From positions 248,001 through 312,000 of the forward strand of contig JAEURR010000003.1 in NCBI GenBank assembly GCA_016788115.1: a stretch of DNA of 64,000 nt, given 5' to 3'. The position numbers and the translations under genes were made by a program. The notes under the pieces were generated by a model. The model searched no databases. It was not told the origin of the DNA and saw only the letters and a program-made list of their open reading frames with translations. Positions 2,512 through 17,699 of the stretch are shown here, one piece after another; position 1 is the stretch's first letter; each line of letters starts with the position of its first letter. The stretch comes from Chthonomonas sp. GTDB taxonomy: Bacteria > Armatimonadota > Fimbriimonadia > Fimbriimonadales > Fimbriimonadaceae.

Positions 2512-2711
2512 GCTGGTTCCTCAGGCTTGATGAACGCGGCGACCATTGCACCCAAGACCAGCAATGCGCTCAGTAAGGGCATCGGCGCAGAGTCCATTCG
2601 ACGTGTCCATTCGGCTTGGGTCCCCGTCCATACCGCAACCTGACTGCCCGCGTATCCCCCGACCAAGAGGACGGCAGCAAGGGTGCCCAAAACGAGACGG
2701 AAAATCTTCAT
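2508..2711 (-). CDS. Small membrane protein with two hydrophobic segments, unknown function
   Basis: A 67-residue protein starting MKIFRLVLG. The ATG at 2709-2711 overlaps the aroB stop as ATGA; the frame stays open further upstream, but that part would lie inside aroB and is unlikely to be translated. Two hydrophobic segments are visible, about residues 4-20 (a membrane segment or signal) and 44-60 (LLSALLVLGAMVAAFI), joined by a polar loop with WTGTQAEWTRR. The stop overlaps the start of the PASTA-kinase gene, again as ATGA. Its fixed position directly before a membrane-bound kinase-like protein suggests a partner, but no family is recognised. Confidence 0.6.
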   Translation of the reverse strand: MKIFRLVLGTLAAVLLVGGYAGSQVAVWTGTQAEWTRRMDSAPMPLLSALLVLGAMVAAFIKPEEPA

Positions 2712-3730
2712 GGTAGGCCCAACAGTCGGCGCACAGCCCGAACGTCGACTTCGCTGCAAAGTTTACACGCTCCGGCCCCGGCAATCAGACTGAATGCGAG
2801 ACCGGATTGGGTCGCCTTCTTGTCGCTGGCCATCCGGGCCAGCAGCCGCTCGCCATCCAGCACCGCAGGAATCGCAACCGGTAGCCCCTGCGAGAGCATG
2901 TCGCGCTCAATGTCCCCGGCTGTCCCGGGGGGAGTGATTCCCAGCGCTTCGCCAAGACGCGCCTCCGCGACCATGCCAATGGCGACCGCCTCACCGTGGA
3001 GCAAATCTTGATACCCGAGCTCGGCCTCGATCGAATGACCGATCGTGTGACCGAAGTTCAAAGTCGCCCGCAATCCGGTCGTTTCGAACTCGTCCTCCTC
3101 CACGATCCTCCGCTTGATGTCGATGCTGCGCCATACCCACTCGCCCATTTTCGGATTGCCGGGTGCGATGGGAGCGCGTCTCAGTTCCTCCAGCAGCGCC
3201 GAATCCGCAATATAGCCGTACTTCCAGACCTCCGCGCTGCCATTGATGAGCTGCCGAGGCGCGAGGGTGCCGAGCGCGTCCGGGCAAACCACCACGCGAA
3301 CCGGAGGATGGAACGCACCGGCCAAATTTTTGCCGCCGCGAAGGTCGACCGCGACCTTGCCACCGACCGAGGAATCGACTTGGGCGAGAAGCGTGGTGGG
3401 AACTTGGACGACTTGCACGCCACGCATGTACGCGGCTGCCACGAATCCGACGAGGTCGCCAACGACGCCCCCGCCGATCGCGACCAGCGTCGCGTCGCGA
3501 GTGACCCTGCGTTCGGCCAACCACTCCAGACACCGCTCAAATTCAGAGATCGACTTGGAAGTCTCGCCCGACGCGACTTCATACACCAAGCGGTGCGAAA
3601 GGTGATGCCCCCAAAGCGCGGCGACCGAGGAGTCGATGAAGACGGGCTGCTCGGCGGGCAAGCTTCCAAGAAACTCGGCGAAGTGCTGCTCTTCGATGGG
3701 ATAGGATCCGCGCGAGTGGTGGACGATCAC
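2708..3730 (-). CDS. aroB: 3-dehydroquinate synthase
   Basis: Second step of the shikimate pathway: NAD- and metal-dependent cyclisation of DAHP to 3-dehydroquinate in the cytoplasm. The start chosen is GTG at 3728-3730, which overlaps the aroK stop as GTGA and gives a 340-residue protein beginning with V(M)IVHHSRGSYPI, a normal AroB N-terminus. A GGAGAAG ribosome site lies just upstream, inside aroK. A longer frame open to 3802 would sit inside aroK and was not used. Seen: ASGETSKS, the NAD-binding GGGVVGDLVGFVAA block, PTTLLAQVDSSVGGKVAVD, the metal-binding HTIGHSIE and LLHGEAVAIGM. aroK-aroB adjacency is common in bacteria. Confidence 0.95.
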   Translation of the reverse strand: MIVHHSRGSYPIEEQHFAEFLGSLPAEQPVFIDSSVAALWGHHLSHRLVYEVASGETSKSISEFERCLEWLAERRVTRDATLVAIGGGVVGDLVGFVAAAYMRGVQVVQVPTTLLAQVDSSVGGKVAVDLRGGKNLAGAFHPPVRVVVCPDALGTLAPRQLINGSAEVWKYGYIADSALLEELRRAPIAPGNPKMGEWVWRSIDIKRRIVEEDEFETTGLRATLNFGHTIGHSIEAELGYQDLLHGEAVAIGMVAEARLGEALGITPPGTAGDIERDMLSQGLPVAIPAVLDGERLLARMASDKKATQSGLAFSLIAGAGACKLCSEVDVRAVRRLLGLP

Positions 3731-4248
3731 TTCATCTTCTCCAGCTTGGTGAGGAGCGCCTGGGCAACCTGGGCAGAGTTGTCCCGATCGATGGGCATGC
3801 ACAGGTCGGCCTGGCGGTAGATCGGCAAGCGCGACTCCAGTATTTCATCGAACCGTTGCTCCCAGCCTTCGACCTCCAAGAGCGGGCGCTTCTTGCGGCT
3901 CACGGTCAGTCGCTCAATCAGCCGCTCGCGGGGCACGTCCAGGTAAATGATCAGCCCTATGCGACGCATGTGCCGCCAGTTCTCCTCTCGAAGGATGATT
4001 CCGCCCCCCGTCGCGAGCACCATCCCTTCCGGCTGCATCTCGCGCAAGATCGAAGTCTCGTGATCCCGGAAGGTCTGCTCTCCGTAGGTGGCGAAGATCT
4101 GCGATACCGGGCGTCCAAAGCGATTCTGGAGCAACACATCGGTATCCGCGAACGAGCGCCCGCTGAGCTTGGCGAGTTCGCGACCTACCATGGATTTTCC
4201 GGCCCCCATCATGCCGATTAGAATCCAACTTTGTTGCATCTTGCTCAT
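3727..4248 (-). CDS. aroK: Shikimate kinase
   Basis: Phosphorylates shikimate with ATP in the cytoplasm. The 173 residues match the family length. Seen: Walker A loop GMMGAGKS (about 12-19), the FADTDVLLQ shikimate-binding aspartate, FRDHE, the LATGGGI loop and the lid region with SRKKRPLL. The start codon has no clear Shine-Dalgarno sequence; the sequence before it (GTTGTTTCACA) is AT-rich and lies directly behind a terminator-like hairpin. aroK is the first gene of the aroK-aroB-67aa-pseudokinase-rpe operon. Confidence 0.95.
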   Translation of the reverse strand: MSKMQQSWILIGMMGAGKSMVGRELAKLSGRSFADTDVLLQNRFGRPVSQIFATYGEQTFRDHETSILREMQPEGMVLATGGGIILREENWRHMRRIGLIIYLDVPRERLIERLTVSRKKRPLLEVEGWEQRFDEILESRLPIYRQADLCMPIDRDNSAQVAQALLTKLEKMK

Positions 4249-4314: not shown

Positions 4315-5967
4315 TTAGGGAGCCAGACCGCCCATCTGATCATCTTCGACCACAATCGGGGTGACGAATATGAGGAGCTCAGAGTCGCTGCGCTGGGTGT
4401 TCGACGATCGGAACAGCTGACCGATGATCGGGAGATCAGACAGGATCGGGAATCGCGACGTGGAGGTCGTGGTTGCCTTTCGAGTCAGTCCACCGAGGGC
4501 GATCGTCTGGCCGCTCTTCACGCGGGCTACGACACCGATAGTCTGCGTCAGAATGTCGGGAATTTCTTGGCCGTCCGGGCCGCGCTTCAACTGACCGAAG
4601 TCAGCGATGGTCGGGTTCAGATACATGGTCACATAGCCGTCATCGTTGATGCGAGGTCGCACCACCAAGCCGGTATTGATCGTGATCTGCTGAGGCACCG
4701 AGTTCGTCTGGATACCGCCCGCGCCGTTGATCGTCTGGTTCAAGAAGATCGTGGTCTGGTTCTGCTGCGTGACGAACGCGGTCTGGTTGTTCAGAGTTCG
4801 AATAAGCGGAGCGTTGACGACCTTGCCCTGGCCATCCGAAAGGATGGTTCGGAGTCGCGTCGTGATGTTGCCCGTGGCGTAGTTGATGAAGATCGGGTCG
4901 CCGACGCGAGCGAAGGTGCCCGGTCGGTTGCCAGCGTTCACCGCGCCGCGTTGGTAGAGCCAGTCCATACCCAGCGATCGAGCCACCGATTGGCTGGTCG
5001 TGATGAATTCGACCTTGATGATGACCTGCTTGGGCACCGTGTCGAACATCGCCACGAGCTGTCGCAGCTGCTGGATCGCTTCGTCGTCGCCTTGCACGAT
5101 CAGCGAGTTGTCGCTGGGATCGTACGTGACGCGCTGAAGCCCATCGGGAGCGAAGCCCGTGCCTGCCTGGATCGCGCCGCCACCTTGGCCGGTGTTACCA
5201 CCGCCGCCACCGCCACCAAGACCCGCGCCGCCGCCACCGCCGCCGTTACCGCCACCACCGCCGCCGCGGACCTGGTTGGCCGTTTCTCCCGGAAGCTGAA
5301 TGTCGTTACCGCTGTTCTGGAAGCTGCCCGAGTCGGTCGGAAGCGTGCCCTTGTCGCCCTTCACCGGAAGTGCGTTGCCGGGGCTCATGACCGCAGAACC
5401 GCCTGCGCCAATCATGACCTGTGAGGTCGGGATCTGAGTCGTTCCACGCTGATCAATCTGGAAAGTGTTGACTTCCTTGAGACCGCGGTCAGGATCAAGG
5501 GCGATGCCTTGGAAGATCGCTTCATAGACGTGGCGCACGTCGGCGTTCATGATCTTGATGCGCTCGATCTTCATCGGTCGCTTGATCGCCGTTCCCGAAG
5601 GGTTGTTCGCCAACCGTGCTGGCCGCTGGCCCGCACGAATCACGAAGACGCCATTCTCGTCGCGCTCTGCCCAGCAGCCGGCAGCTTCGCAGATGTACTT
5701 GATCGCCTCTTCAGCAGTCACGCCCGACAGAGAAAGGTTGACCTTCTCATACGGAGTCTGCGACGGGGCAATCACGAACTGAAGGCCAGTTTGTCGAGTC
5801 AGCATCTGAGTTGCCTGGAGCAGGTCTGCATCTTTCAGGAAGATGTCCACCCGCTTGGCGAGCCCGCTAACCTGAGCCCATGCGATCTGGCCAACCACCG
5901 CTAGAGCGAGTACCGCTCCGCGAGTCAGTCGTTTTGCCACGTTATTGAACGTCATAGTCGTCTTCAT
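4315..5967 (-). CDS. pilQ: Type IV pilus outer-membrane secretin
   Basis: Forms the outer-membrane gate through which the pilus passes. Over 550 residues: signal peptide (about 1-31, ending QIAWAQ), an STN/N0 domain (about 40-112), an N1-like domain that starts near MKIERIKIMNADVRHVYEAI, a linker with long glycine runs (about 230-262), a further N domain (SDNSLIVQGDDEAIQQLRQL) and the secretin barrel (about 315-540) with the typical VARVKSGQTIALGGL and LPIIGQLFR blocks. The glycine-rich insertion inside the periplasmic part is unusual for PilQ. It is the last gene of the pilM operon and is followed by a hairpin. A type II secretion GspD is the alternative, but the pilM-pilN-pilO context favours a pilus. 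Confidence 0.9.
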   Translation of the reverse strand: MKTTMTFNNVAKRLTRGAVLALAVVGQIAWAQVSGLAKRVDIFLKDADLLQATQMLTRQTGLQFVIAPSQTPYEKVNLSLSGVTAEEAIKYICEAAGCWAERDENGVFVIRAGQRPARLANNPSGTAIKRPMKIERIKIMNADVRHVYEAIFQGIALDPDRGLKEVNTFQIDQRGTTQIPTSQVMIGAGGSAVMSPGNALPVKGDKGTLPTDSGSFQNSGNDIQLPGETANQVRGGGGGGNGGGGGGAGLGGGGGGGNTGQGGGAIQAGTGFAPDGLQRVTYDPSDNSLIVQGDDEAIQQLRQLVAMFDTVPKQVIIKVEFITTSQSVARSLGMDWLYQRGAVNAGNRPGTFARVGDPIFINYATGNITTRLRTILSDGQGKVVNAPLIRTLNNQTAFVTQQNQTTIFLNQTINGAGGIQTNSVPQQITINTGLVVRPRINDDGYVTMYLNPTIADFGQLKRGPDGQEIPDILTQTIGVVARVKSGQTIALGGLTRKATTTSTSRFPILSDLPIIGQLFRSSNTQRSDSELLIFVTPIVVEDDQMGGLAP

Positions 5968-6009: not shown

Positions 6010-6693
6010 TTAGCCTCGGCCAAAACCGCCGCTGCCGCCACCGCTACCGCCGCCAAAGCCGCCGCCGCCACCACCGAAGCCGCCACCGCCGCCGCCGAAG
6101 CCGCCGCCACCGAGACCGCCGCTGCCGCCGCCGCCACCGAGGCCGCCACCGAAGCCGCCGCCGCCGCCATTACCACCGCCGCCGCCGAAGCCACCGGAAA
6201 CGATGACCGAGTTCTCAGGCTGCATGGTCGGATCCCACTCGGCATTGATCAGTCGAATGATCAAGAGCGGGTCTGCGTGGCGAATTTGGATTCGCTGCGG
6301 CATGTTGGTCGTGGTCGTCGTTGTGATCGGAGCCGTGGTGTCCGTACCACCGCCGAAGCCTGTGTCTTGCGGCTTCAGGATGATCGTGTAGATGCCACCT
6401 TCGACTCGATAGGTCGCATTAACCTGGTTCAAGATGTTGCGAAGAACCGTCTCAAACGGCGTCGGAGACGTGATGCTGATCGTCACTTCGCCCTGCACAT
6501 CGGAGTTGATGGAGTACGGGATTCCGACCTGTTTGAACAGGAGCCGAAGCGCATCGCGGACGTCGGCTTGCTGGAGTTCCAGTGCCGGGACGCTCACGTT
6601 CGCCGGGTCGATCTGAGCCGTGCCCTTGATGGGGGCACCAATCAGGATCGTGCTGAGCACGCCGATTGCTGCGAGTTTCCAGAGGTTCTTCAT
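6010..6693 (-). CDS. STN-domain (secretin N0-like) exported protein with polyglycine tail
   Basis: A 227-residue protein. The second of two close ATG codons (6691-6693) was chosen because AAGGA lies 9 bases before it; the first ATG (6697-6699) is also possible. Layout: signal peptide MKNLWKLAAIGVLSTILIG..., an STN/N0 domain (VPALELQQADVRDALRLLFKQ onward), an N1-like stretch (QRIQIRHADPLLIIRLINAEW), then about 60 residues that are nearly all glycine with scattered Phe, Leu and Ser up to the stop. It looks like the front half of a secretin without the barrel, placed directly upstream of a complete secretin that has its own STN domain. It may line the vestibule or bind the PilP-like lipoprotein; the function is not known. 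The glycine-coding repeats are GC-rich triplets. Confidence 0.75.
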   Translation of the reverse strand: MKNLWKLAAIGVLSTILIGAPIKGTAQIDPANVSVPALELQQADVRDALRLLFKQVGIPYSINSDVQGEVTISITSPTPFETVLRNILNQVNATYRVEGGIYTIILKPQDTGFGGGTDTTAPITTTTTTNMPQRIQIRHADPLLIIRLINAEWDPTMQPENSVIVSGGFGGGGGNGGGGGFGGGLGGGGGSGGLGGGGFGGGGGGFGGGGGGFGGGSGGGSGGFGRG

Positions 6694-6727
6694 AGTCATG
6701 GGTCCTTGTGTCTTAATTCTATCGCGA

Positions 6728-7471
6728 TTACTCACCGGCTGTCGCGTTTCCGCCGCCGCCACCACTGTCACGGGTATCCGCGCCCGGGCCACCGCCGGCG
6801 CGACGCCCACCGCCGCCACCGCCTGTGCCTCCCGATTCGCCTCCACCGCCTCCGACATCCAGTCGGCTTGCGAGTGGAACTACGATCTCGTGCGGCAGGT
6901 CCTTCGTCGTGCGTCGCAGAACCGCCTTTTCGTTATCGATCGAAACGACCACCCACTCACCGTTATTGAGCCGGGTGCCAGGTCGAATCTCGACCAATCG
7001 GCCGTTGATCTCCAGCAACGCGGCCACGCCGTTTGCCAAAATGATGCCCGCCAACCGGAGTCCGGGAGGCGCGGGAACAATTCGAGGGGTCCCTTCGTTC
7101 GGGTCGACCTGTTCGGTGGTAGGAGCGTACAGATCCGAGAATCCTCCAAGACCTTCCATTAGCCGAGCGACGGTCTGGGTTGACTCAAACTTCGTCTCCG
7201 AAGCGAGCAGCGACCAGGGGTCTTTGCGCGGTTCGCCAACCTTGCTGCCGGCGAGTTCGCGCAGTTCGGTCATATCTGGTGCCGACTGGTCCAGGGTTAT
7301 ACCGGCATCAGATTTGAATGCGTACCGCTGCCCCGGAGCCAACGCCGGCGGCGCACCCGGAGTCGCCGGACCTGGAGGAGTGGTCGTCGTTGCCGTGTCG
7401 CTGCCGCCGCCGCATCCAATGAGGGCGGTCGTCGCGAGAAACGATATCAAAGCAAAGTTTTTCAGTTTCAT
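6728..7471 (-). CDS. pilP: PilP-like pilus assembly lipoprotein
   Basis: A 247-residue lipoprotein: signal peptide with lipobox LIGC (Cys20), a Pro/Thr linker, then a region rich in short beta strands (GLRLAGIILANGVAALLEINGRLVEI, broken here by a natural repeat of the fold: GTRLNNGEWVVVSIDN), typical of PilP, and a glycine-rich tail of about 45 residues. In type IV pili PilP links the inner-membrane PilN-PilO pair to the secretin. The identification rests on the strand pattern, the lipobox and the position after pilO. The start overlaps the pilO stop as TGATG. Confidence 0.75.
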   Translation of the reverse strand: MKLKNFALISFLATTALIGCGGGSDTATTTTPPGPATPGAPPALAPGQRYAFKSDAGITLDQSAPDMTELRELAGSKVGEPRKDPWSLLASETKFESTQTVARLMEGLGGFSDLYAPTTEQVDPNEGTPRIVPAPPGLRLAGIILANGVAALLEINGRLVEIRPGTRLNNGEWVVVSIDNEKAVLRRTTKDLPHEIVVPLASRLDVGGGGGESGGTGGGGGGRRAGGGPGADTRDSGGGGGNATAGE

Positions 7472-8292
7472 CAGTTTGCCGCCGTCGTCTGCGCTCCAGG
7501 TCGACCAGGAGTCTCCGATGCTCGCGGAGGACCGCCAGCAGGTGCGCCACCTTCGGTGCCACCCGTCGGGCCGCCACCGGGCCCACTATTCTGATTGTCG
7601 CTCGAAGCGAGCTCCGGCACAGGGGGAGCGACCTTCGTAGCACGCAGGAATCCGACAATGCTCAACCGATAGGTACCTCGAAGCACGGGAGAAGTACCAG
7701 TAAGACTGAGACCGTCCGTCACTGCCATATAGTTCGGCAGATTGCTCCAAGACTCTACGTTCTCGGCGATCTGATCAAACGTACCTTCCACCACAATCGT
7801 GCCGAAATCGTAAACGACCACTGGGAAGTTGAGTGCGGGATAGTTGAAACCGGTTTCGACGATGTCCCGAGCCGACTGAGAGAAGTTCGGAACGACCGGA
7901 CCGGTGATCACCCGAACTCCGCCCTTCTTCACCTGGGCATTGACCGCAAGCTGAATGTTATTGCGGAAGCTTCGCGCGTCCTTGACGAGCTGCCATCGGT
8001 TCACCGAGAGATCGATACCACCCTTCACCAGCGAGGCGGGCGGCGTCTTGGCATCCACAACGCCGGACCACTCTTCGTCCAGAGCCGCAAGCTTCGCTTC
8101 GGCGTCCTTGACGCGTCGTTGAGCTGCGCCACGCTTCGCGATCTCGTTATTGTAGGCAGCGGTCGTCTCAGTGTACGAACTCGCTTCCGCCATGTTCGGT
8201 GAGTAGAACATGAAGAAACCGATCGCCAGTAGCCCGACGCACAGCAGCAAGCCGCTCAGGAGCCAGGTCAGAGGATTGAAGTTCTTAAGCAT
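7471..8292 (-). CDS. pilO: PilO-like pilus assembly protein
   Basis: A 273-residue bitopic inner-membrane protein. It has one N-terminal membrane helix (about 9-31, WLLSGLLLCVGLLAIGFFMF), a coiled-coil stretch (about 40-75) and a ferredoxin-like periplasmic domain with the IVVEGTFDQIAENVESWSNLP motif that is typical of PilO (a strand, then a helix packing on it). The last 50 residues are a Gly/Pro/Ala-rich tail (GPGGGPTGGTEGGAPAGGPP), an addition not usual in the family. It pairs with PilN to form the alignment complex between the cytoplasmic PilM and the PilP-like lipoprotein. Confidence 0.85.
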   Translation of the reverse strand: MLKNFNPLTWLLSGLLLCVGLLAIGFFMFYSPNMAEASSYTETTAAYNNEIAKRGAAQRRVKDAEAKLAALDEEWSGVVDAKTPPASLVKGGIDLSVNRWQLVKDARSFRNNIQLAVNAQVKKGGVRVITGPVVPNFSQSARDIVETGFNYPALNFPVVVYDFGTIVVEGTFDQIAENVESWSNLPNYMAVTDGLSLTGTSPVLRGTYRLSIVGFLRATKVAPPVPELASSDNQNSGPGGGPTGGTEGGAPAGGPPRASETPGRPGAQTTAAN

Positions 8293-8298
8293 GGTCGT

Positions 8299-9255
8299 TT
8301 ATCGATCCTCCGGAGAACCGCCCTGCGAAGGTCGGCCTGGGCCACCGCCCGGTACACCCGCAGGTGGAGCACCACCCGCCGGGAGCAGTCCGGGCCCTGC
8401 CGCGGCAGGAGGAGCGGCCGAGCCAGGGCCTACCGGAGCCAGCGAGGCACGTGGCACCGGAGTGCGGAAATCGTAGTTCAGCTGCTTGTCGGCCGGGATC
8501 GAAGGATCCATGTTCAGCACGACACCAAAGGTGACTTCAGACCACTTCGGCATAGCGCGTTTGGCATCGCGGGTACCCGTTCCAAAGTTGCCCGCGCCGG
8601 TAAACCCGTCGTTAGCATCCTTGGCTTGTTCGACCAAGTAGGCGATCCGCTCATCCGGCCCCTTGGATCCGTCCGGACGCATAAATGGCGGAATCCTTCC
8701 GGCCTTCACGAGGTGCGGAAGACCAATATTATCCGTCGCGTCTAACCCAGGGACGTACGTGTCGTTCAAATCAAAAGTCGAGCGGCTGACCTGAACCGCG
8801 CCGGGGATCCGTAGGAGCGCCAGCGCAGTGTCTGCATACTGCTGGTAAGTCTGCAGGACGCCGGTAACGGTCAACAAACAACCCGTCTCAGAAGCCGGTC
8901 GCACCGACATCGCGTTCACACGCATGTAAGAAGGGATGTAGGGCTGAATGGAGCGATAGAATTCCGTGTACTTGGTGTTCTGCGCGGTCATCGCCTTGTA
9001 CAGGTCCAGGTTTCGCTTGACCTCGGTACCCTGGGCGGCCTTCGCCTCCGCAGATTGCGCGAGCGCGACGACTGCATCGGCTTGCACCTTTGCTTCGTCC
9101 ATCTCGACCTTCGCCGCCTCACGCTTGCCCGATGAGTAGACACTCATGAAGCCAGCAAGCGCCGCGCCGCCGATGGCGAGCAACAAGCCGAGGACAAGAA
9201 AGGTTCGGCCTCGCGCGCCTTGAGTCACATATTTTGGGAGAAGATTAAGCTTCAT
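8299..9255 (-). CDS. pilN: PilN-like pilus assembly protein
   Basis: A 318-residue bitopic protein. The N-terminus MKLNLLPKYV matches the conserved PilN peptide (typically INLLP) that inserts into PilM. A membrane helix follows (about 17-38), then a coiled coil (40-85) and a small alpha/beta domain (about 105-160, MRVNAMSVRP...LLTVTGVLQTYQQYADTAL). Residues 160-270 carry an extra stretch not typical of PilN, and the last 45 residues are Pro/Gly/Ala-rich (APPAAAGPGLLPAGGAPP). Nine bases separate it from pilM. Confidence 0.85.
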   Translation of the reverse strand: MKLNLLPKYVTQGARGRTFLVLGLLLAIGGAALAGFMSVYSSGKREAAKVEMDEAKVQADAVVALAQSAEAKAAQGTEVKRNLDLYKAMTAQNTKYTEFYRSIQPYIPSYMRVNAMSVRPASETGCLLTVTGVLQTYQQYADTALALLRIPGAVQVSRSTFDLNDTYVPGLDATDNIGLPHLVKAGRIPPFMRPDGSKGPDERIAYLVEQAKDANDGFTGAGNFGTGTRDAKRAMPKWSEVTFGVVLNMDPSIPADKQLNYDFRTPVPRASLAPVGPGSAAPPAAAGPGLLPAGGAPPAGVPGGGPGRPSQGGSPEDR

Positions 9256-9264
9256 CGTAGTTTG

Positions 9265-10518
9265 TCAATCAAAAGCGATGTGAAGTGCGTTGCCGACAGC
9301 GATGGCGAACTCCGATCGGTGCGAATCTAGCTGATTCATATCCAGTCGGCGACCGGAGAGGCTGAGCCCCTTGAGCGGATCGTAATCCTGAACCTTGAGC
9401 CCAATCATGCGTTCAAGGTACTCCGAAAGTCCGCGAAGCTTTGCGCCGCCGCCGCACAGATAGATGGAATCGACGTCTCCGCCCTTGCTGCGGTAGTAGT
9501 CGATCGATCGGCGGAGCTCAGAGTAGAACTCCTCAAGGATCGCGGCCATTGCATTGTAAATCCGTGTGCTCTCTACATCGTCCGTTGGCGCAGCATCCGG
9601 AACGGGAGGTGGCGGCACGAATTCACCGGTCGTCTGATCGGCTTGAACATCGGCCGCGTACGGCTCGGCGTAAGGATTTGCCGCCGGCATCTGCATGGTG
9701 GGCGCAGGGTCCGAGGCAAAAGGATCGTAGGCCGGCGCAGCGGGTGTGCCGTATCCGCCGCCAATACCTGCGCTGTTGGGGACGCTGGCGCGGCTCTGTT
9801 TCAACGTCTCGGCTTCGGCTTCGTTGATGCCAAGATTGTCCACCAAAGCGCGCGTGATGTGGTAGCCACCGATCGGCACTTGCCGCGGCATCATCAGCTG
9901 CCCGTCCTTGTACATGTTGATGGAGGTCGTATTGTGGCCCATATCAACCACACACATCGTCTTGCCTGCGCCCGCGCCGCCGTAGCTCATCATCGCGCTT
10001 CGAGCCAGGCCCAGAGGCTCGACGTCAATTGCGTGCGGCTTACGTCCAGACTTGGTCACGACCTGGATCATGGTTTGGATCGCCGACTGCGGCGCGATCG
10101 CCATGACCACATCCATGTTGGGTGAATTCGGATCGTCGTTCGGGTACGCCCGGTAGTCGCTCTCTATCGTGCTTTCGGCGAACGGGATGTTACGACTGAT
10201 TTCGTAGTTCATCGTCTCCTTCAGCTCGTCTGAGGTCATCTTGGGCACTTCGAGCGTGCGTACCAGGACGGATGCCTGACCAGCGATGGACACGACGGCG
10301 AAGGGGGCGCTTGCCCCTGCGTCCGCGGCGAGGGACTTGACGGCGGCGGCAACGGCATCGGAATCGTAAACGCCCGCGCTGTCCACCGTCCCCTCCGGAG
10401 TCGGGCCGATGTTGAGCGCGGTGATGGCAGGTTCTCGACCTTGCATCTTGACCTCCGCGATCTTGATCTGTTGACTCCCGATGTCAATTCCGAGAACAGT
10501 GTTTAGCTTTTTCGGCAT
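9265..10518 (-). CDS. pilM: PilM-like actin-fold pilus assembly ATPase-fold protein
   Basis: Cytoplasmic actin/FtsA-like protein that binds ATP and the N-terminal peptide of PilN. Seen over 417 residues: phosphate-1 motif GIDIGSQQIKIAEV (about 10-23), MNYEISRNIPF, the CVVDMGHNTTSIN phosphate-2 loop, GGYHITRAL, and the C-terminal YLCGGGAKLRGLSEYLE adenosine motif. An insertion of about 70 residues (roughly 250-320), rich in Pro, Ala, Tyr and Asp, interrupts the fold before the last subdomain and is unusual. It is the first gene of the operon, with GGAG before the ATG and a good promoter 37-66 bases upstream. Confidence 0.9.
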   Translation of the reverse strand: MPKKLNTVLGIDIGSQQIKIAEVKMQGREPAITALNIGPTPEGTVDSAGVYDSDAVAAAVKSLAADAGASAPFAVVSIAGQASVLVRTLEVPKMTSDELKETMNYEISRNIPFAESTIESDYRAYPNDDPNSPNMDVVMAIAPQSAIQTMIQVVTKSGRKPHAIDVEPLGLARSAMMSYGGAGAGKTMCVVDMGHNTTSINMYKDGQLMMPRQVPIGGYHITRALVDNLGINEAEAETLKQSRASVPNSAGIGGGYGTPAAPAYDPFASDPAPTMQMPAANPYAEPYAADVQADQTTGEFVPPPPVPDAAPTDDVESTRIYNAMAAILEEFYSELRRSIDYYRSKGGDVDSIYLCGGGAKLRGLSEYLERMIGLKVQDYDPLKGLSLSGRRLDMNQLDSHRSEFAIAVGNALHIAFD

Positions 10519-10742: not shown

Positions 10743-13700
10743 CTAGTTGCCTGGCTGCGAGTTGATCACCGGCGCCCACGTCTGCATGAACACGTCCGGG
10801 GAGCCGTCGCGAGTGCTGGACCACAGCATCCACCATAGCCCAGGTCGCCCCAGGCCCGGTGCGCTGAACGCTCCCGAGAACGGATCGAGCATCAGCGTCA
10901 TCGACGATTCGGTTCCTGGCTCGCTGACCGGGATCGGGGTTTCGTCCATTTCGCCGACGTATCCGACACGCTGGGTGGTCTGGACTCGCTGCTGATTCCC
11001 GTTCGAATCGATGATCGTGTATCGAACGGTCAGCACTCGGCTTTCATTCTCAGACGTGACGTAGATGTTTCCGCGGACGGGATCGACCTGATAGAACGAG
11101 CCCGAGGCCATACCGCTTACCGAGAAGCGCACCAGCAAGCCCGAGGAGTTCAGCGCTGGCAGGCTCGGAAGCCGGAAACCGTGTCGAAGCGTACGGAGGT
11201 ACGGACGAACACCGGTGTTGGCTCCGCCCTGAGTCGCCGTTCGCGAGTACGACAAGATGTACCGATCGACTCGCATCTGGTTCGCTGCAGGGTCGAACAA
11301 CGATCCGCCACCAAACGTGAACGACTCGGACGCTGCGTAGGGCAGCTCAGTCTGATACCGATCGTCGAACACCATGTTGACGCCCGAGTAGTTCTGAGCC
11401 TCCGATTCGCTGATCCGCGCAAAGCGCGGGGTGGACCGTAGGATGAGCGTAGACTTGGTGGGCACCAACGCGCCAGCGAGCTTGACCGAGCCGTTGCTTA
11501 GGTCGATCTGCGCCTGTCCGCCAAAGATCGTATCCACGATCAGGAGCCGACTCGACGCGTCGTACTGCCGCGTGTTGTTGTCCAAGATCGACTCGTAGCC
11601 GCCGTTGACTCGCCGCAGCACATCGATGAACTCGCTGTTCAGCGGGTTGGCAATCACGCCTTCCACGGTGCCGTTCGTGTCCGTCGCATCGCTGCGCAGC
11701 TCCACGCCTCGACTCCAGTACGCGCCGGTGATTCGATCGTAGATCAGATCGTCGGTCCGGGTCGCCCAGACCTGCAAGAACGAGCCTGCGAATCTCTGCG
11801 GTACGCCCGCGTTGTTGCAGTTCATCGTTGCGAGATAGACTTCCGAGTTCGACTTGCCGCGGAGCTTGCCCGTAAACGAGAGCTGGATCTGAGGTCCAGG
11901 CACCGCCCCCAAGGCGTTGCGCAAGATCGCGCTCACCGAGCCAACGGTCTCGAACGACGAGTTGATCGCAAGCGAGCCCAGCACGCTGTTGCCCAATCGC
12001 ACCCATCCGCCGTTCGTGTAGACCGCCCAGTTCAACTGTTGCAAGCCACCCGACGTGGTCGTAAAGAACACGGTGGCGGTACTGCCTGTTTGGACAATCG
12101 AGGGTCGGCCGATCCTTGCGCCTTCCAGCGCAGTCGAGCCGCCCACCGCGAGCGGTGTGACGTTGTTGATCGTAACCTGGCCATTGGCGTTCGTAGTCAC
12201 CGTTGCGATGAACAACTGCGAAAGCCGAACGGTCTCGCCGTTGGCCGTCGTGGCCGAGGCTTCACCCACGAACGTCAGGTAGACAGAGTTGTTCAGACCG
12301 CGACCCGGGAAGTTCTGCAGCGGGTTGTACGCACCCATTGCTGGGAATGCGGGCATGCCGAAGCGAACCGTGGACGGGTTGATCGTCGTATTGGGACCAA
12401 CTCCGAAGAGGGCCTCGTACGATCCGCCCGGGAATGGAGTCTGGTTCTGGATGAACCATCGCTGGTTCGAAGCCGAGCCCCACTGGTCGAGGTCGTTGGT
12501 CGGGTTCGGAGCAATCGCGCCCGAGGGAGCGTCGCCGCGAAGCGAAGCCGCATACAGCGACCAGGTTGCTTGCGCCGCCGAATCGCTCTGCGTTCTCAGC
12601 CGCTGAGTCCAACCAGGGCCGCCGCCCGTGCTCTGTCGGTTCGAGCTGAAGACCACGACCAAGTTTCCGAAAGAGTCTCGGTATCCGGCAGGCTCTTGGT
12701 TCGCCCACATGAATCGGTGGTCATTGGCAATGGTGAGCGCATCGACCATCGAACCACTCTTGCGGGTGTTTCGATTGGTAATGCGTGCCTCAACGACTTC
12801 GAACGACAGCCGGATTCCCGGATCGATGTACGACTCGTAGATCGCGTTGCTTCCGGCTCCGGACAGCACGCCAATCGTCGGGATGCCACCCGCCGTGAAG
12901 ATCGTGTCTTCGAAGGCGTAGATGTCCTGGCGGTACTTGCCCACCGGCGTACCGATCGGGACCGAAACCGTCAGCTTCGGATCGTCAATCGGCGGGAAGC
13001 CAGAGTCGGCGACGCCCAAGTTGACGTTGCCACGACGAGGCGGAGCCAATCGCAGGCGGGTGGGAACACCATCCCCGACTCGCGACTTTTGCACAATCCG
13101 CTTGCGGTTGTAGGCAACGGGTGTGAGCGACTCGTCCAAGTCCGAATGCAGGTGACGGACCGTGTCCATCCACGCATTGAAGTTCAGGCTTGGGCTACCG
13201 AGCACGCGTGCTCGCGAGTCGTTCTGGATGTCCTTTCCGACCCGTACGTTGAGCAAGTTCACGTTCCCTTCATTCCAAACGGTGAAGGTGCGCGTGTACG
13301 AGCCCGCGGAGCCAAACGTCGCATCGTTCATCAAGAACGGATTCGAGCGCGGATCTTGACCAGGAAGGTAGATGCCACCTTGCGGTATCGGGCCGAGGTC
13401 CACCGTCGGCGATGTCGTGCTCAGCCGCTCATCGACGGCCACGTACGCAGCACCGCGATACTCACGGTAGGCAAACGCCGAGTCCTTCGTGAATTGCGAG
13501 ATACTCGTTCCGCCTGGATCGATGTAGACCCGGTTCCGGCTCTCGTACCACTGGGCGGTCGGCGGCTGGTACTTCGGCACATCCAACTGGAGTTGGAACT
13601 CGGTCGGACGCAACACGCGCGTCAGACCCGCGTTGTACGTCGCGACGTCCGTCTCGTAGGTCTCGCGCTCGACATCGCCGAAGATCGCGCCCTCGAGTTC

Positions 13701-16700
13701 GACGGGCTGGAAGACCGGGTTCTGTGCCAGGCCGTTCGGCTTGGCAGCGACTGTCAGCGCGTCGCGGCGGATGTTCGGGTAGTCAAGGCTCGTGTTCGAG
13801 TCCTCGGCATTGGGAGCATCCTCATAGCCGGCGAAGTAAGAAGGATCAAGCGTCTTGATGCGGAAGTCCGTTGCGACCGGATTATCGTTCGCATCGGTGA
13901 GCTTCCACACCATGTCTCCGCCTCGGAATCGGACGTTAGTCAGACCCTTGCCGAAGCCGTTCAGCAGCGACATCGCGCTGCGGTCCAGCACGAACATCAC
14001 GCTCTCGGCGGTCGTACCGTGTTTGACGAAATTGATCGGGTAATTCAGGACGTTGAATACCGAGTCGCCGAACCCTTGGCGGATAATCCGCAAGTTATTC
14101 GAGACGAACGAACCGTTCTGAAGCACCTCAGGCGAAGCGGGATTGAGCGTAACACCGATGGAGTCGCTCGTGCCACCCGCAGCCCCGCCGCTCAGCCTGG
14201 AAATCGCCAACGGATTCGCGAGCGTGTAAGTGAGCGAAGGAGCATAGTTCGCGTTGAGCAACGTGGCATTCGCCGATCCACGATTGGGGCGTGTGGCCAC
14301 CGCTGAGACGCGCATCGTCATGCTGCCCGGAGCCAGTCCGCTCGTACCCGTCCCGCGCAACGGGATCGCGATCAGCGAGACCGTGCCCAGATCGGGAGTC
14401 GTGCCCGTGACTGCGTAGGTCGGACCGAACTGCCGGCGCGTTGCCGAGTTTGTGGCCGTGACTTCGGCCTGGACCTGATAGGTCGTGGTGCCGGTCGGGT
14501 TTTCCGGAAGGTTGTAGACCATCACGTACAAGGTCTCGCCGTACTCAAATGCCGTACGGGTGACTTTCGACTTGATCGCCCCCGAAGTATTGGCCAGCGC
14601 CTGAATCTCAGCGTAAGCAACCGGCGTACCGTTCGCGAACTTCTGCCACAGTTTCTGATAGTCGTCAGGCAGCAGCAGCGTCGATCGGCTGTTCAGCGTG
14701 ATGCCGTTCAGGATATCGATGGTGGGGTCGTTCGGTGGAATCTCTTCGGCCACCGGCGAGTCGCCGGGCGTCAGAGCGAGGTCGCCGTCCGCGAAGTCGG
14801 GATCGTCGCCAAACGCGTACATCGTTCCGAGCGCATCAGCCACGTACATGAAGCCGTACTCCTCATCGAACGCAGCCGAAGGCGGCGTCCAACCAAGCGG
14901 CTTGCCACCGAAGGCAGGCGATGTCGCGCGTGTCCCTTCCAGCTTGTAACCACCCGCGTCGCGCAGGCCGGTTGCCGCCGGTCCGGATGAAAGCCGGTTC
15001 GTGTCGCCTGTTCGTGCGAAGTAACCCTTGATCTGGCCGGTGAGCATCGGCACCATCACCACGGGTCGGCCCTGCGGTGAAGGCGGTGCGCCCGTCGGAT
15101 AGTCCTGCGCGCCCGAGTTCTGAAGCGTATTCATGTACGTAAACCCGAGCGAGCCCGAGGGGCTGGCGTTGAGTTCGCTCGTACTCCAAAGCACTCCACC
15201 CGTGTTGGCATCAAATGCGTACAGCGACCTGTTCGGGTTGGCGATATAGAGGGTATCGGGCATACCGCCCGGGCCATCCACAATCGCATCGGGGACCACA
15301 ACCGGCGAACTCGACTCGAAGCCTCCGAAGAGGTTGATCGTGCCGGTACCGTCCGTGCTCCAGACGAGATTGCCGTCACCGTCCGCCTCTGGATCGTTTT
15401 GATCCAGTGCGTAGAGCTTCGAGTCGCCCGCACCGAAGAAGATCTTGCCAAATGCCACCGCGGGAGACATCGTGATCGAGCCAACTCCGAGCGGAGCCGC
15501 TGCGGCGGGGTACTGCCAAGTGATCGTCGTCGTGCGAGTGGCGGTCGAACCTGCCGCGTCGAGCGCATAAAGTCGTCCAAGTCGCGTCGGGACGAAGACT
15601 GTCGCCGTCGCTGGGCCGCCGCCGCTCGAGGTGGTCGAGACCGTCACCGAACCCGTGATGGGGCCGACGTTCAGCGCCGATGGGGCGGCTGGGTAGTCAT
15701 CCGGCCAACTCCAACGTCGCGTGGTGGTGCCATCGCCGCGACCCTGGGTGTCCAGACAGTAAACCTTGCCATTCTTCGAGCCGATGTACAGCAGGAATTC
15801 GGTGTCGGTCGCCAGCGGGCCAGTTTGCACTTCGGCGACTGCCGCCGAGGTCACGTCGAAGCCAGTCGGCATCTGGGCGATGCCATCGGGTCCGTCGATT
15901 CCCACGACCTTGTTCGGGTCGCTGCTAGCGGGCTTCTCGCTCGGCCAGACCCAATAGACTTCAGTTTTGCCCGTGTAGTTAGGGCCGGACTTGAGCCCGT
16001 CCGCATCCAAACAGTAGATGCGTCCGTTCTCCATCGCGACGATCGCAACGTCTCGGGTCGCCAGACCACTCGAGGTCTGAACCGGGATGCGCGTGAAGAG
16101 CGGAGTCGAGCGGATGCTCAGGTCCGCCGTGCGGACAAAGCGAATGCCATCGGCCAACACCGTGCGTCCGACGTCGGCTGCATTGGTGGTCTGGTTCGTC
16201 ACGGCGACCGACAAGGTCGCGGCCTCGTCGCTCTCGAACACGGAGACACCGCTGATGCTCAGCCGAGCCCACCGTGCGCTCGTCGTCTGGTCGACCGTCG
16301 CGGATCCGATCAGGAAACCGCCGCGGTAGATTTCGACCTGGGCTGCACGGGCCAGGGCCGAGTTTGCACCTGGCACCCACATATCAATCGAGTACTCGCC
16401 CGCGGGCAAACTGGGGCGATAGAACGCGCGCGCCGTCGGAGAAGCGGCAATCGCCGGAACCGAGGCGTAGTCGATCCCAAGGAATCCGGCCACCGCATTA
16501 TCTGGGCCGAAACCAGCACCGAGTTGTACGCCGTGAGACCGGTTGTCCATCGACACCGATTGGGTCGCTCGGCTCAGGCCGCCGATGTCCGCACCAAGAA
16601 TCCAATCTCGCTTCTCAGCAACATAGCGATCGGATTCTGACGTGGTATCGGCTAGCTGCCGGGTCGCGGGCCAGGACCAGACGATGTTGCGTCGCGTGAC

Positions 16701-17699
16701 GCCGCCCGGGTTCGGCTCAGTCGCATCAACCTTGAGACCGCTGTGGTTGTAACTCGAAACGATGCCGAGCGCGTAGTTCTCAACCGAGGATCCGACTTGC
16801 AGGCTCGTTGGATCGTTGCGGGTACCCAGGGTGCGAAGCGGGAACTGTCCGCCCGCCGTGATGCGCCCCAAAACCGGAGCGGCCACCGTCTCGCCGACGG
16901 TATCCAACGCTCGGACCGAACGGGCCGAGTCCGCGTAAACCACGATCGCGGGGCGAGTATCCGTAAGTTCGCCAGTCCCGGTCCGCGGAACCGTGTTCAG
17001 CAGCCGAATCGTGATCTGCGCACCCGTGGCGCGGAAGGTGCGATCGGTCGCCAAGCCGCCGTTACCCAGGCGAGTTTCGCCGCCGCCCGCGTCCGTATCA
17101 ACAACATCGACCACCGGGTTGCCCGGATTGGCTTCGTTCTCAACGCCGACGATCTCATACACAAAGTACCGCTGCGGGTAGTAAAGCCCCGGTCCGAGCG
17201 GCGCACCCGCGTCCAAGACTTCGGTCGGTCCGACCGGGATGTTCACGAAGAGCTGATAGTCTTTTCCAATGGCCGAGGAGAATCGCCATTCAAACGTATT
17301 GGCGGTGCCCGTCGCCGGAACATTGGGGTTTTCCGAGTTTTGCGCGGGAGTGGTGTACGAGTAGTTGTATTCGGCGCGACCCACAATCGGGTTCTTCAAA
17401 GTTGCGTTGAAAGCACGCACTTCGCCGGTCGGCGCAAGCCAATCCGCGGGGTTGAAAGCAACGCCCGAAGAGGTCTCCCAGTTGTCGAGGTCTGCTTGAA
17501 TCGCGCGTACGGGGTCCCACCACCGTAGCCGCAGCCGTCCAGGAGTATCGTTCTGCACGTCACCCACCTGGAGACCGGTCCGCGCACTATCGCCCCTAAA
17601 CGTGGGGTACGTCGATTCTGCGCCGACCCACAAGGCGGCGAGACCGACGAGCGCGAGTGCGAAACCACTCTTAACTGCAAGATTCCACTTGGCTTTCAT
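10743..17699 (-). CDS. Giant exported beta-propeller protein, candidate pilus-tip adhesin
   Basis: 2318 residues with a signal peptide (about 1-28, ending WVGAES). The mature start YPTFRGDSARTGLQ is the hallmark of PQQ-like propeller proteins. About residues 425-525 resemble a Golvesin-type C-terminal/carbohydrate-binding module (AGEYSIDMWVPG ... RWARLSI ... VLADGIRFV). Residues about 540-970 hold repeated blades (RIYCLDADG, KVYCLDTQGRG, RLYALDAAG, KLYALDQND, SLYAFDANTGGVLW). The remaining 1300 residues are beta-rich and unassigned, with no membrane anchor or sorting motif at the end. As last gene after the PilX-like and 1531-residue genes, it takes the position PilY1 has in other operons, so a tip or surface role is inferred; the propeller resemblance is not proof. 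Cysteines are few. Confidence 0.8.
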   Translation of the reverse strand: MKAKWNLAVKSGFALALVGLAALWVGAESTYPTFRGDSARTGLQVGDVQNDTPGRLRLRWWDPVRAIQADLDNWETSSGVAFNPADWLAPTGEVRAFNATLKNPIVGRAEYNYSYTTPAQNSENPNVPATGTANTFEWRFSSAIGKDYQLFVNIPVGPTEVLDAGAPLGPGLYYPQRYFVYEIVGVENEANPGNPVVDVVDTDAGGGETRLGNGGLATDRTFRATGAQITIRLLNTVPRTGTGELTDTRPAIVVYADSARSVRALDTVGETVAAPVLGRITAGGQFPLRTLGTRNDPTSLQVGSSVENYALGIVSSYNHSGLKVDATEPNPGGVTRRNIVWSWPATRQLADTTSESDRYVAEKRDWILGADIGGLSRATQSVSMDNRSHGVQLGAGFGPDNAVAGFLGIDYASVPAIAASPTARAFYRPSLPAGEYSIDMWVPGANSALARAAQVEIYRGGFLIGSATVDQTTSARWARLSISGVSVFESDEAATLSVAVTNQTTNAADVGRTVLADGIRFVRTADLSIRSTPLFTRIPVQTSSGLATRDVAIVAMENGRIYCLDADGLKSGPNYTGKTEVYWVWPSEKPASSDPNKVVGIDGPDGIAQMPTGFDVTSAAVAEVQTGPLATDTEFLLYIGSKNGKVYCLDTQGRGDGTTTRRWSWPDDYPAAPSALNVGPITGSVTVSTTSSGGGPATATVFVPTRLGRLYALDAAGSTATRTTTITWQYPAAAAPLGVGSITMSPAVAFGKIFFGAGDSKLYALDQNDPEADGDGNLVWSTDGTGTINLFGGFESSSPVVVPDAIVDGPGGMPDTLYIANPNRSLYAFDANTGGVLWSTSELNASPSGSLGFTYMNTLQNSGAQDYPTGAPPSPQGRPVVMVPMLTGQIKGYFARTGDTNRLSSGPAATGLRDAGGYKLEGTRATSPAFGGKPLGWTPPSAAFDEEYGFMYVADALGTMYAFGDDPDFADGDLALTPGDSPVAEEIPPNDPTIDILNGITLNSRSTLLLPDDYQKLWQKFANGTPVAYAEIQALANTSGAIKSKVTRTAFEYGETLYVMVYNLPENPTGTTTYQVQAEVTATNSATRRQFGPTYAVTGTTPDLGTVSLIAIPLRGTGTSGLAPGSMTMRVSAVATRPNRGSANATLLNANYAPSLTYTLANPLAISRLSGGAAGGTSDSIGVTLNPASPEVLQNGSFVSNNLRIIRQGFGDSVFNVLNYPINFVKHGTTAESVMFVLDRSAMSLLNGFGKGLTNVRFRGGDMVWKLTDANDNPVATDFRIKTLDPSYFAGYEDAPNAEDSNTSLDYPNIRRDALTVAAKPNGLAQNPVFQPVELEGAIFGDVERETYETDVATYNAGLTRVLRPTEFQLQLDVPKYQPPTAQWYESRNRVYIDPGGTSISQFTKDSAFAYREYRGAAYVAVDERLSTTSPTVDLGPIPQGGIYLPGQDPRSNPFLMNDATFGSAGSYTRTFTVWNEGNVNLLNVRVGKDIQNDSRARVLGSPSLNFNAWMDTVRHLHSDLDESLTPVAYNRKRIVQKSRVGDGVPTRLRLAPPRRGNVNLGVADSGFPPIDDPKLTVSVPIGTPVGKYRQDIYAFEDTIFTAGGIPTIGVLSGAGSNAIYESYIDPGIRLSFEVVEARITNRNTRKSGSMVDALTIANDHRFMWANQEPAGYRDSFGNLVVVFSSNRQSTGGGPGWTQRLRTQSDSAAQATWSLYAASLRGDAPSGAIAPNPTNDLDQWGSASNQRWFIQNQTPFPGGSYEALFGVGPNTTINPSTVRFGMPAFPAMGAYNPLQNFPGRGLNNSVYLTFVGEASATTANGETVRLSQLFIATVTTNANGQVTINNVTPLAVGGSTALEGARIGRPSIVQTGSTATVFFTTTSGGLQQLNWAVYTNGGWVRLGNSVLGSLAINSSFETVGSVSAILRNALGAVPGPQIQLSFTGKLRGKSNSEVYLATMNCNNAGVPQRFAGSFLQVWATRTDDLIYDRITGAYWSRGVELRSDATDTNGTVEGVIANPLNSEFIDVLRRVNGGYESILDNNTRQYDASSRLLIVDTIFGGQAQIDLSNGSVKLAGALVPTKSTLILRSTPRFARISESEAQNYSGVNMVFDDRYQTELPYAASESFTFGGGSLFDPAANQMRVDRYILSYSRTATQGGANTGVRPYLRTLRHGFRLPSLPALNSSGLLVRFSVSGMASGSFYQVDPVRGNIYVTSENESRVLTVRYTIIDSNGNQQRVQTTQRVGYVGEMDETPIPVSEPGTESSMTLMLDPFSGAFSAPGLGRPGLWWMLWSSTRDGSPDVFMQTWAPVINSQPGN

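Follow-up and report, generated by a model that had tools for sequence, protein, structure and literature searches.

Secretin vestibules measure 6–9 nm, and how they avoid leaks while passing a pilus is an open question. The locus described here bears on it. In a stretch of 64,000 nucleotides of DNA from the armatimonadotal Chthonomonas sp. of the family Fimbriimonadaceae (the window), a small gene, designated X, lies within a type IV pilus operon directly before a complete secretin gene, and its product resembles the front of a secretin followed by a glycine-rich tail. Why would a pilus operon encode this module a second time, as a protein of its own? An earlier, sequence-only reading of the locus offered two answers: a second ring layer in the periplasm, or a decayed duplicate kept for its tail. 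Here, we argue that X is probably an extra part of the pilus pore that helps to seal it. The features on which the argument draws are collected in Table 1.

Table 1. Gene X, its parts and the surrounding pil operon (positions in the window)
Feature	Position	Strand	Basis
Gene X, judged a detached secretin N0 protein, 229 aa	6010..6699	minus	ORF list and relatives
X signal peptide, residues 1-29	6613..6699	minus	by reading; similar N-termini in relatives
X N0/STN domain, about residues 40-108	6376..6582	minus	PF07660; PilQ N0 in PDB; model
X first half of N1, about residues 135-153	6241..6297	minus	alignments to 6w6m and PilQ N0-N1
X Gly-aromatic tail, residues 169-229	6013..6195	minus	residue composition
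pilQ secretin, 550 aa, own signal peptide, diverged N0, secretin domain	4315..5967	minus	Pfam, TIGR02515
Gly-rich insert splitting PilQ N1 at the point matching the end of X	5176..5265	minus	sequence
pilP-like lipoprotein gene, Gly-rich C-terminus	6728..7471	minus	lipobox by reading; order and synteny
pilO-like gene	7471..8292	minus	order and synteny
pilN-like gene	8299..9255	minus	order and synteny
pilM	9265..10518	minus	PF11104 1.5e-42
aroK (shikimate kinase), canonical gene after pilQ	3727..4248	minus	by reading; cluster order PMC7545093
aroB (3-dehydroquinate synthase)	2708..3802	minus	by reading

The length of 229 aa results from an ATG at 6699; an in-frame ATG at 6693 is an alternative start, giving the open reading frame 6010-6693. 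The signal peptide (by reading) and the STN domain that had been proposed for X are borne out, the latter by a profile match to PilQ N0 and by Pfam (PF07660, E 8.8e-6), where the single sequence scores 25.9 bits, below the curated cut-off of 28.4. The X profile aligns to residues 157-285 of Vibrio cholerae PilQ (6w6m), through N0 and into the beginning of the domain after it, with an E-value of 7e-11. Of the proposed N1-like domain, the first half is present, as the first strand and helix only; the second half is absent, with none in 76 X records except for a weak remnant at locus L067. The tail, described as about 60 residues of almost pure glycine, is 61 residues long and glycine-rich but less pure than that, at 79% Gly, with 10% aromatic residues (Phe 10%) and no Asp or Glu at all.

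Among the traits of the PilQ family, X has the N0/STN domain (PF07660 below its cut-off, with profile and fold matching the N0 of PilQ and LspD). Pfam finds the secretin domain PF00263 in the adjoining pilQ and not in X, and TIGR02515, the curated PilQ model with a cut-off of 284 bits, gives X 21.2 bits. Because it has no secretin domain, half an N1 and 21 of the 284 bits, X is, as judged from its domains, a detached secretin domain and not a secretin. Other classes of protein do not fit either. TsaP and pilotins are accessory ring proteins of secretins with LysM/FlgT or lipoprotein/TPR domains, for which Pfam and curated-model searches returned no match in X. In TonB-dependent signalling proteins, the STN domain is followed by a plug and barrel or works with a FecR partner, and none of these is found in X or among its neighbours.

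The gene order of the operon is pilM, pilN-like, pilO-like, pilP-like lipoprotein, X, pilQ, aroK and aroB, in which pilN, pilO and pilP, lacking any Pfam match, take their names from position and synteny. In the available sections of PMC7545093, the canonical cluster of proteobacteria runs pilMNOPQ and then aroK and aroB; X is therefore an insertion between P and Q. The gene directly after X does encode a complete secretin with an STN of its own, as had been read, although this STN is weak (PF07660, E 0.019), next to clear matches to PF00263 (7.3e-38) and PF03958 (1.3e-6). A frameshift or other assembly artefact separating the two genes is ruled out: 42 bases lie between the X stop and the pilQ ATG, and the same two-gene layout recurs in relatives, including the single-contig genomes G009, G020 and G029. 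Elsewhere in the operon, the PilN-, PilO- and PilP-like proteins (window 6728-9255) carry Gly/Pro-rich low-complexity C-terminal tails, as do those of many relatives, and a gene for a 2318-aa secreted protein (window 10743-17699, same strand) opens the gene block upstream of pilM. The same genome also encodes, at G000:C5:26401-26802 and 225702-227489, a 258-aa protein in which two stretches resemble STN, and another secretin, of 898 aa, with a strong STN.

X is present in 38 of the 41 genomes of the order (its own genome counted), with no internal stops among the order-level matches listed. The three genomes without it have contigs that end within the operon before X, which accounts for its absence: after pilM in G003, in pilP in G040 and after pilO in G025, where pilQ resumes at the start of another contig. 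In a phylum sample of 151 genomes, the X profile matches 123 at 1e-8, and loci were read from part of these. Of the 28 genomes without a match at this threshold, 20 were searched for PilM and 16 of these were read; G097, G121 and G145 were left out of the reading, and G088 has no PilM. Ten of the 16 span the interval as far as pilQ, and each of these ten carries an X-like gene before pilQ, encoding a diverged STN protein with a tail of Gly, Ser, Asn, aromatic residues and Arg. The X profile scores best at L160 and L166 (9e-4 and 2e-9) and is the only one to match L158 (3e-4). The PilQ profile scores above it at L162 and L167 and alone matches L156, L157, L161 and L170 (9e-5 to 4e-3), while the gene at L163 has no profile match and was picked by eye. 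The contig breaks inside the gene at L165 and L169 and before it in four more of the 16.

Over all loci read (two duplicate contigs dropped), X lies directly upstream of 78 of 79 full-length PilQ frames; in L124, where two PilQ frames overlap, the second is the lone exception. Because most loci were retrieved by way of X, this count is biased; the ten found through PilM are free of that bias. Absence of X from all relatives, which would have spoken against the sequence-only reading, is thus excluded, as it is found throughout the phylum. A scan of genome contigs for X returned three loci, all from Armatimonadota, and a search of a plasmid collection returned nine records, all from Acinetobacter, Escherichia and Neisseria, which cover at most 61% of the query; the only annotated match among them is a PilQ. 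X is a conserved component of the Armatimonadota pil operon for which our literature searches found no description; the Fimbriimonas genome paper, in its available sections, names PilQ and PilM and does not mention X (PMC4072686).

The relation of X to its neighbour is clearest in N0. The N0-N1 regions of X and PilQ are homologous (hhalign 99.6%, 19% identity). Against the solved PilQ N0 domains in the PDB, the X profile reaches a best value of 7e-11, and the N0 profile of the neighbouring PilQ proteins reaches 3e-6 against the same domains. An Arg in helix 1, as in the PilQ of V. cholerae and Neisseria meningitidis, occurs in 36/36 X rows; in the PilQ column paired with it by profile alignment, Arg is outside the five commonest residues. 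Likewise, a V-Q-G stretch that is 97-100% conserved in X is lost in the neighbouring PilQ. By these alignments, it is X that keeps the canonical PilQ N0 signature, and not the adjoining PilQ. A structure model of full X from the isolated sequence has a pLDDT of 37.6, too low to be informative. The four-sequence AlphaFold model, reliable for N0 only, gives X an N0 fold at a pLDDT of about 80, whose best Foldseek matches are the N0 domains of LspD and N. meningitidis PilQ. According to the available sections of PMC3441751, the binding site for PilP on N. meningitidis PilQ lies around the first helix and strand of N0. From this binding and the canonical N0 of X, we infer that X holds the PilP-facing N0 ring.

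The end of the conserved part hints at where X came from. X breaks off partway through N1, at the point where the PilQ proteins next to it bear a Gly-rich insert of their own, and an extra X copy at L067 (1873-2796) runs through the Gly stretch into a PilQ-like N1 strand. The alignment of this strand scores 85, a value reached by 0/500 shuffles (the best scores 57); the N1b profile finds L067 only, and weakly (E 0.069). For L069, a supposed trace of the second half of N1 is unsupported, as 472/500 shuffles reach its score. Given the stop at the insert site and the L067 remnant, X resembles a PilQ front cut at a disordered loop. X may have arisen as such a front that became a gene of its own, by duplication or by the split of a longer PilQ. 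Everything after the Gly-rich N1 insert would then have been lost from X, leaving the loop as a free tail.

The tails vary in sequence: after insertion and deletion, the types GGGGF, GGF, GGYGGF, GSSGGF, GGMGGM and GNNSGYG are found. Their composition varies less, with medians over 62 X tails of 70% Gly, 14% aromatic residues and no acid. In 57 tails with 4144 residues together, Phe makes up 10%. Residues more than one base away from any Gly codon (F, Y, L, M, N, I) number 904, including 20 Trp, which were counted in this class although Trp is one base from GGG; of the one-base neighbours of Gly codons, A, V, D and E together number 88, and S and R 360. The C-terminal residue (n=79) is Arg in 31 proteins, Phe in 28, Tyr in seven and Trp in three. 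Some tails are short, and 6/79 X proteins have less than 50% G+S+N in their last 50 residues; one of these six Gly-poor tails is from L067, which has two X copies, and possibly belongs to its unlinked paralogue. Gly-richness is not peculiar to X, since the ends of PilN, PilO and PilP are also Gly-rich in part of the genomes; the aromatics are. Those ends contain Pro, with medians of 36-44% Gly and 2.5% aromatic residues, while in the same comparison the X tails have medians of 70% and 12.5%, and the PilQ insert 60% and 5%. What seems to be conserved is therefore the chemistry of the tail (Gly with F/Y/W, almost no acid, and an Arg or aromatic end) and not its sequence, which would make it a deeply conserved bacterial low-complexity tail.

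The reading that we favor, and to which we give about an even chance, is that X is a separate subunit of the Armatimonadota type IV pilus secretin, whose lowest, PilP-facing ring has become a protein of its own with tails that act as a diaphragm or gasket. Its parts are not equally firm: X as a ring partner of the pilus secretin is well supported, while a role of the tails as a periplasmic gate or diaphragm is what we infer. X would form an N0 ring stacked under PilQ, with its first strand and helix docking PilP and hence the PilN/PilO inner-membrane platform. Each ring would carry about 12-15 tails that point into the channel; they and the Gly-rich inserts in PilQ N1 would make up a soft, cohesive diaphragm across the wide periplasmic vestibule, shut when the pilus is absent and closing round a passing pilus. 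By rough arithmetic, 14 tails of ~60 small residues (~4600 cubic angstrom each) would take up ~40% of the volume of a cylinder with a width of 80 angstrom and a height of 30, which would suffice for a soft plug. The second periplasmic ring layer of the sequence-only reading fits the N0 fold, the operon position and the near one-to-one pairing with PilQ; the ring itself is predicted. If a separate, deletable gene does encode the lowest ring together with a candidate soft gate, the roles of N0 and of a disordered gate become testable with the secretin intact.

X might also be a docking ring only, an N0 adaptor between PilP and PilQ whose tail is a passive spacer or a stand-in for the lost N1 half, without any gating. 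We think this unlikely, though it deserves to be taken seriously: N0 is the conserved part of X, tail sequence and length drift, and PilN, PilO and PilP carry Gly-rich tails as well. However, the tail is nearly always kept, with many residues that are not one base from Gly codons and very little acid, and a neutral spacer would have no need of such conserved chemistry. There is a smaller chance that X aids the multimerization of PilQ or its arrival at the outer membrane, with a chaperone-like tail or one that binds membrane or peptidoglycan. X is a separate exported protein encoded beside pilQ, and its tail ends in F, W or Y in 38/79 proteins and in R in 31/79, a faint likeness to the outer-membrane C-terminal signal. 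Against this role, searches of X for a pilotin, TPR or LysM domain, or for any other domain known from assembly factors, found none, and N0 domains build rings and are not among the known pilotin folds. The tail could conceivably leave the cell as a sticky, silk-like attachment segment, since its Gly-aromatic repeats are reminiscent of structural low-complexity proteins. The pili of Fimbriimonas are thought to serve attachment, according to the available sections of PMC4072686; yet the conserved half of X is a periplasmic secretin N0 domain and its gene keeps a strict place in the inner part of the pil operon, which makes a surface or matrix protein improbable.

X is under strong purifying selection. 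Within one genus, the domain part has a median dN/dS of 0.072 over the 36 pairs among nine pilQ-adjacent copies, where the median dS is 0.95, and of 0.069 over the 45 pairs among ten unlinked copies. Mean column identity is 47% in X (36 sequences) versus 42% in PilQ N0-N1 (32 sequences). A decayed pilQ duplicate kept for its tail would explain the missing second N1 half and secretin domain, but with dN/dS near 0.07 within that genus, retention throughout the phylum, no internal stops among the order-level matches listed and an N0 closer to the canonical form than the one in the intact PilQ, this reading has almost nothing left to recommend it.

A separate subunit with a soft gate would have partial counterparts in known systems. 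X shares the N0 fold and signature and the first N1 half with the N0-N1 of type IVa PilQ secretins (N. meningitidis 4ar0/4av2, V. cholerae 6w6m), as well as the gene neighborhood pilMNOP-Q-aroKB; unlike them, it is a separate chain without a secretin domain or complete N1 and with a Gly-aromatic tail. The N0-N1 of HofQ, the DNA-uptake secretin of Escherichia coli, also matches the X profile (2y3m, 1.2e-6), but that protein is a complete single-chain secretin. FG-nucleoporins offer a looser parallel, with ring-anchored, disordered Gly/Phe tails able to fill a channel; there is no homology, the Gly content of X is far higher and no transport receptor is known. It is a tentative and rather doubtful extension that the whole phylum splits its pilus secretin in two and keeps the channel sealed by Gly-Phe/Tyr low-complexity tails, arranged in a ring and acting as a cohesive meshwork, similar in principle to the FG barrier of nuclear pores. 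There is also a likeness to Gate 2 of Thermus thermophilus PilQ, which likewise places extra glycine-containing material at N1 beside the N0 ring. According to the available sections of PMC5745081, this gate is periplasmic, lies at the N1 ring and consists of additional loops that contain several glycines; both Thermus PilQ gates open upon pilus extrusion (PMC5745081 and PMC4463427, available sections). The Thermus loops lie within a single PilQ chain, whereas Armatimonadota have a free tail on a second protein in addition to the PilQ insert.

Several loci deserve separate mention. The contigs of G005, G010, G015, G036 and G021 end near X, some of them within the tail, which means that the gene may be lost or split in short-read assemblies. 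In one family (L156, L157 and L158), X has, in addition to the tail, a long Gly-rich stretch or linker that separates N0 from N1. Unlinked extra copies of X occur in L106, L114, L117, L118, L122 and L068, and some X proteins may therefore serve elsewhere. At L068 (5442-6871), genome G011 has two tandem extra copies away from pilQ, with short, Gly-poor tails, besides its pilQ-adjacent X. In one genus (L106, L137-L145), a second, unlinked X-like gene encodes a Trp-rich tail and is under strong purifying selection.
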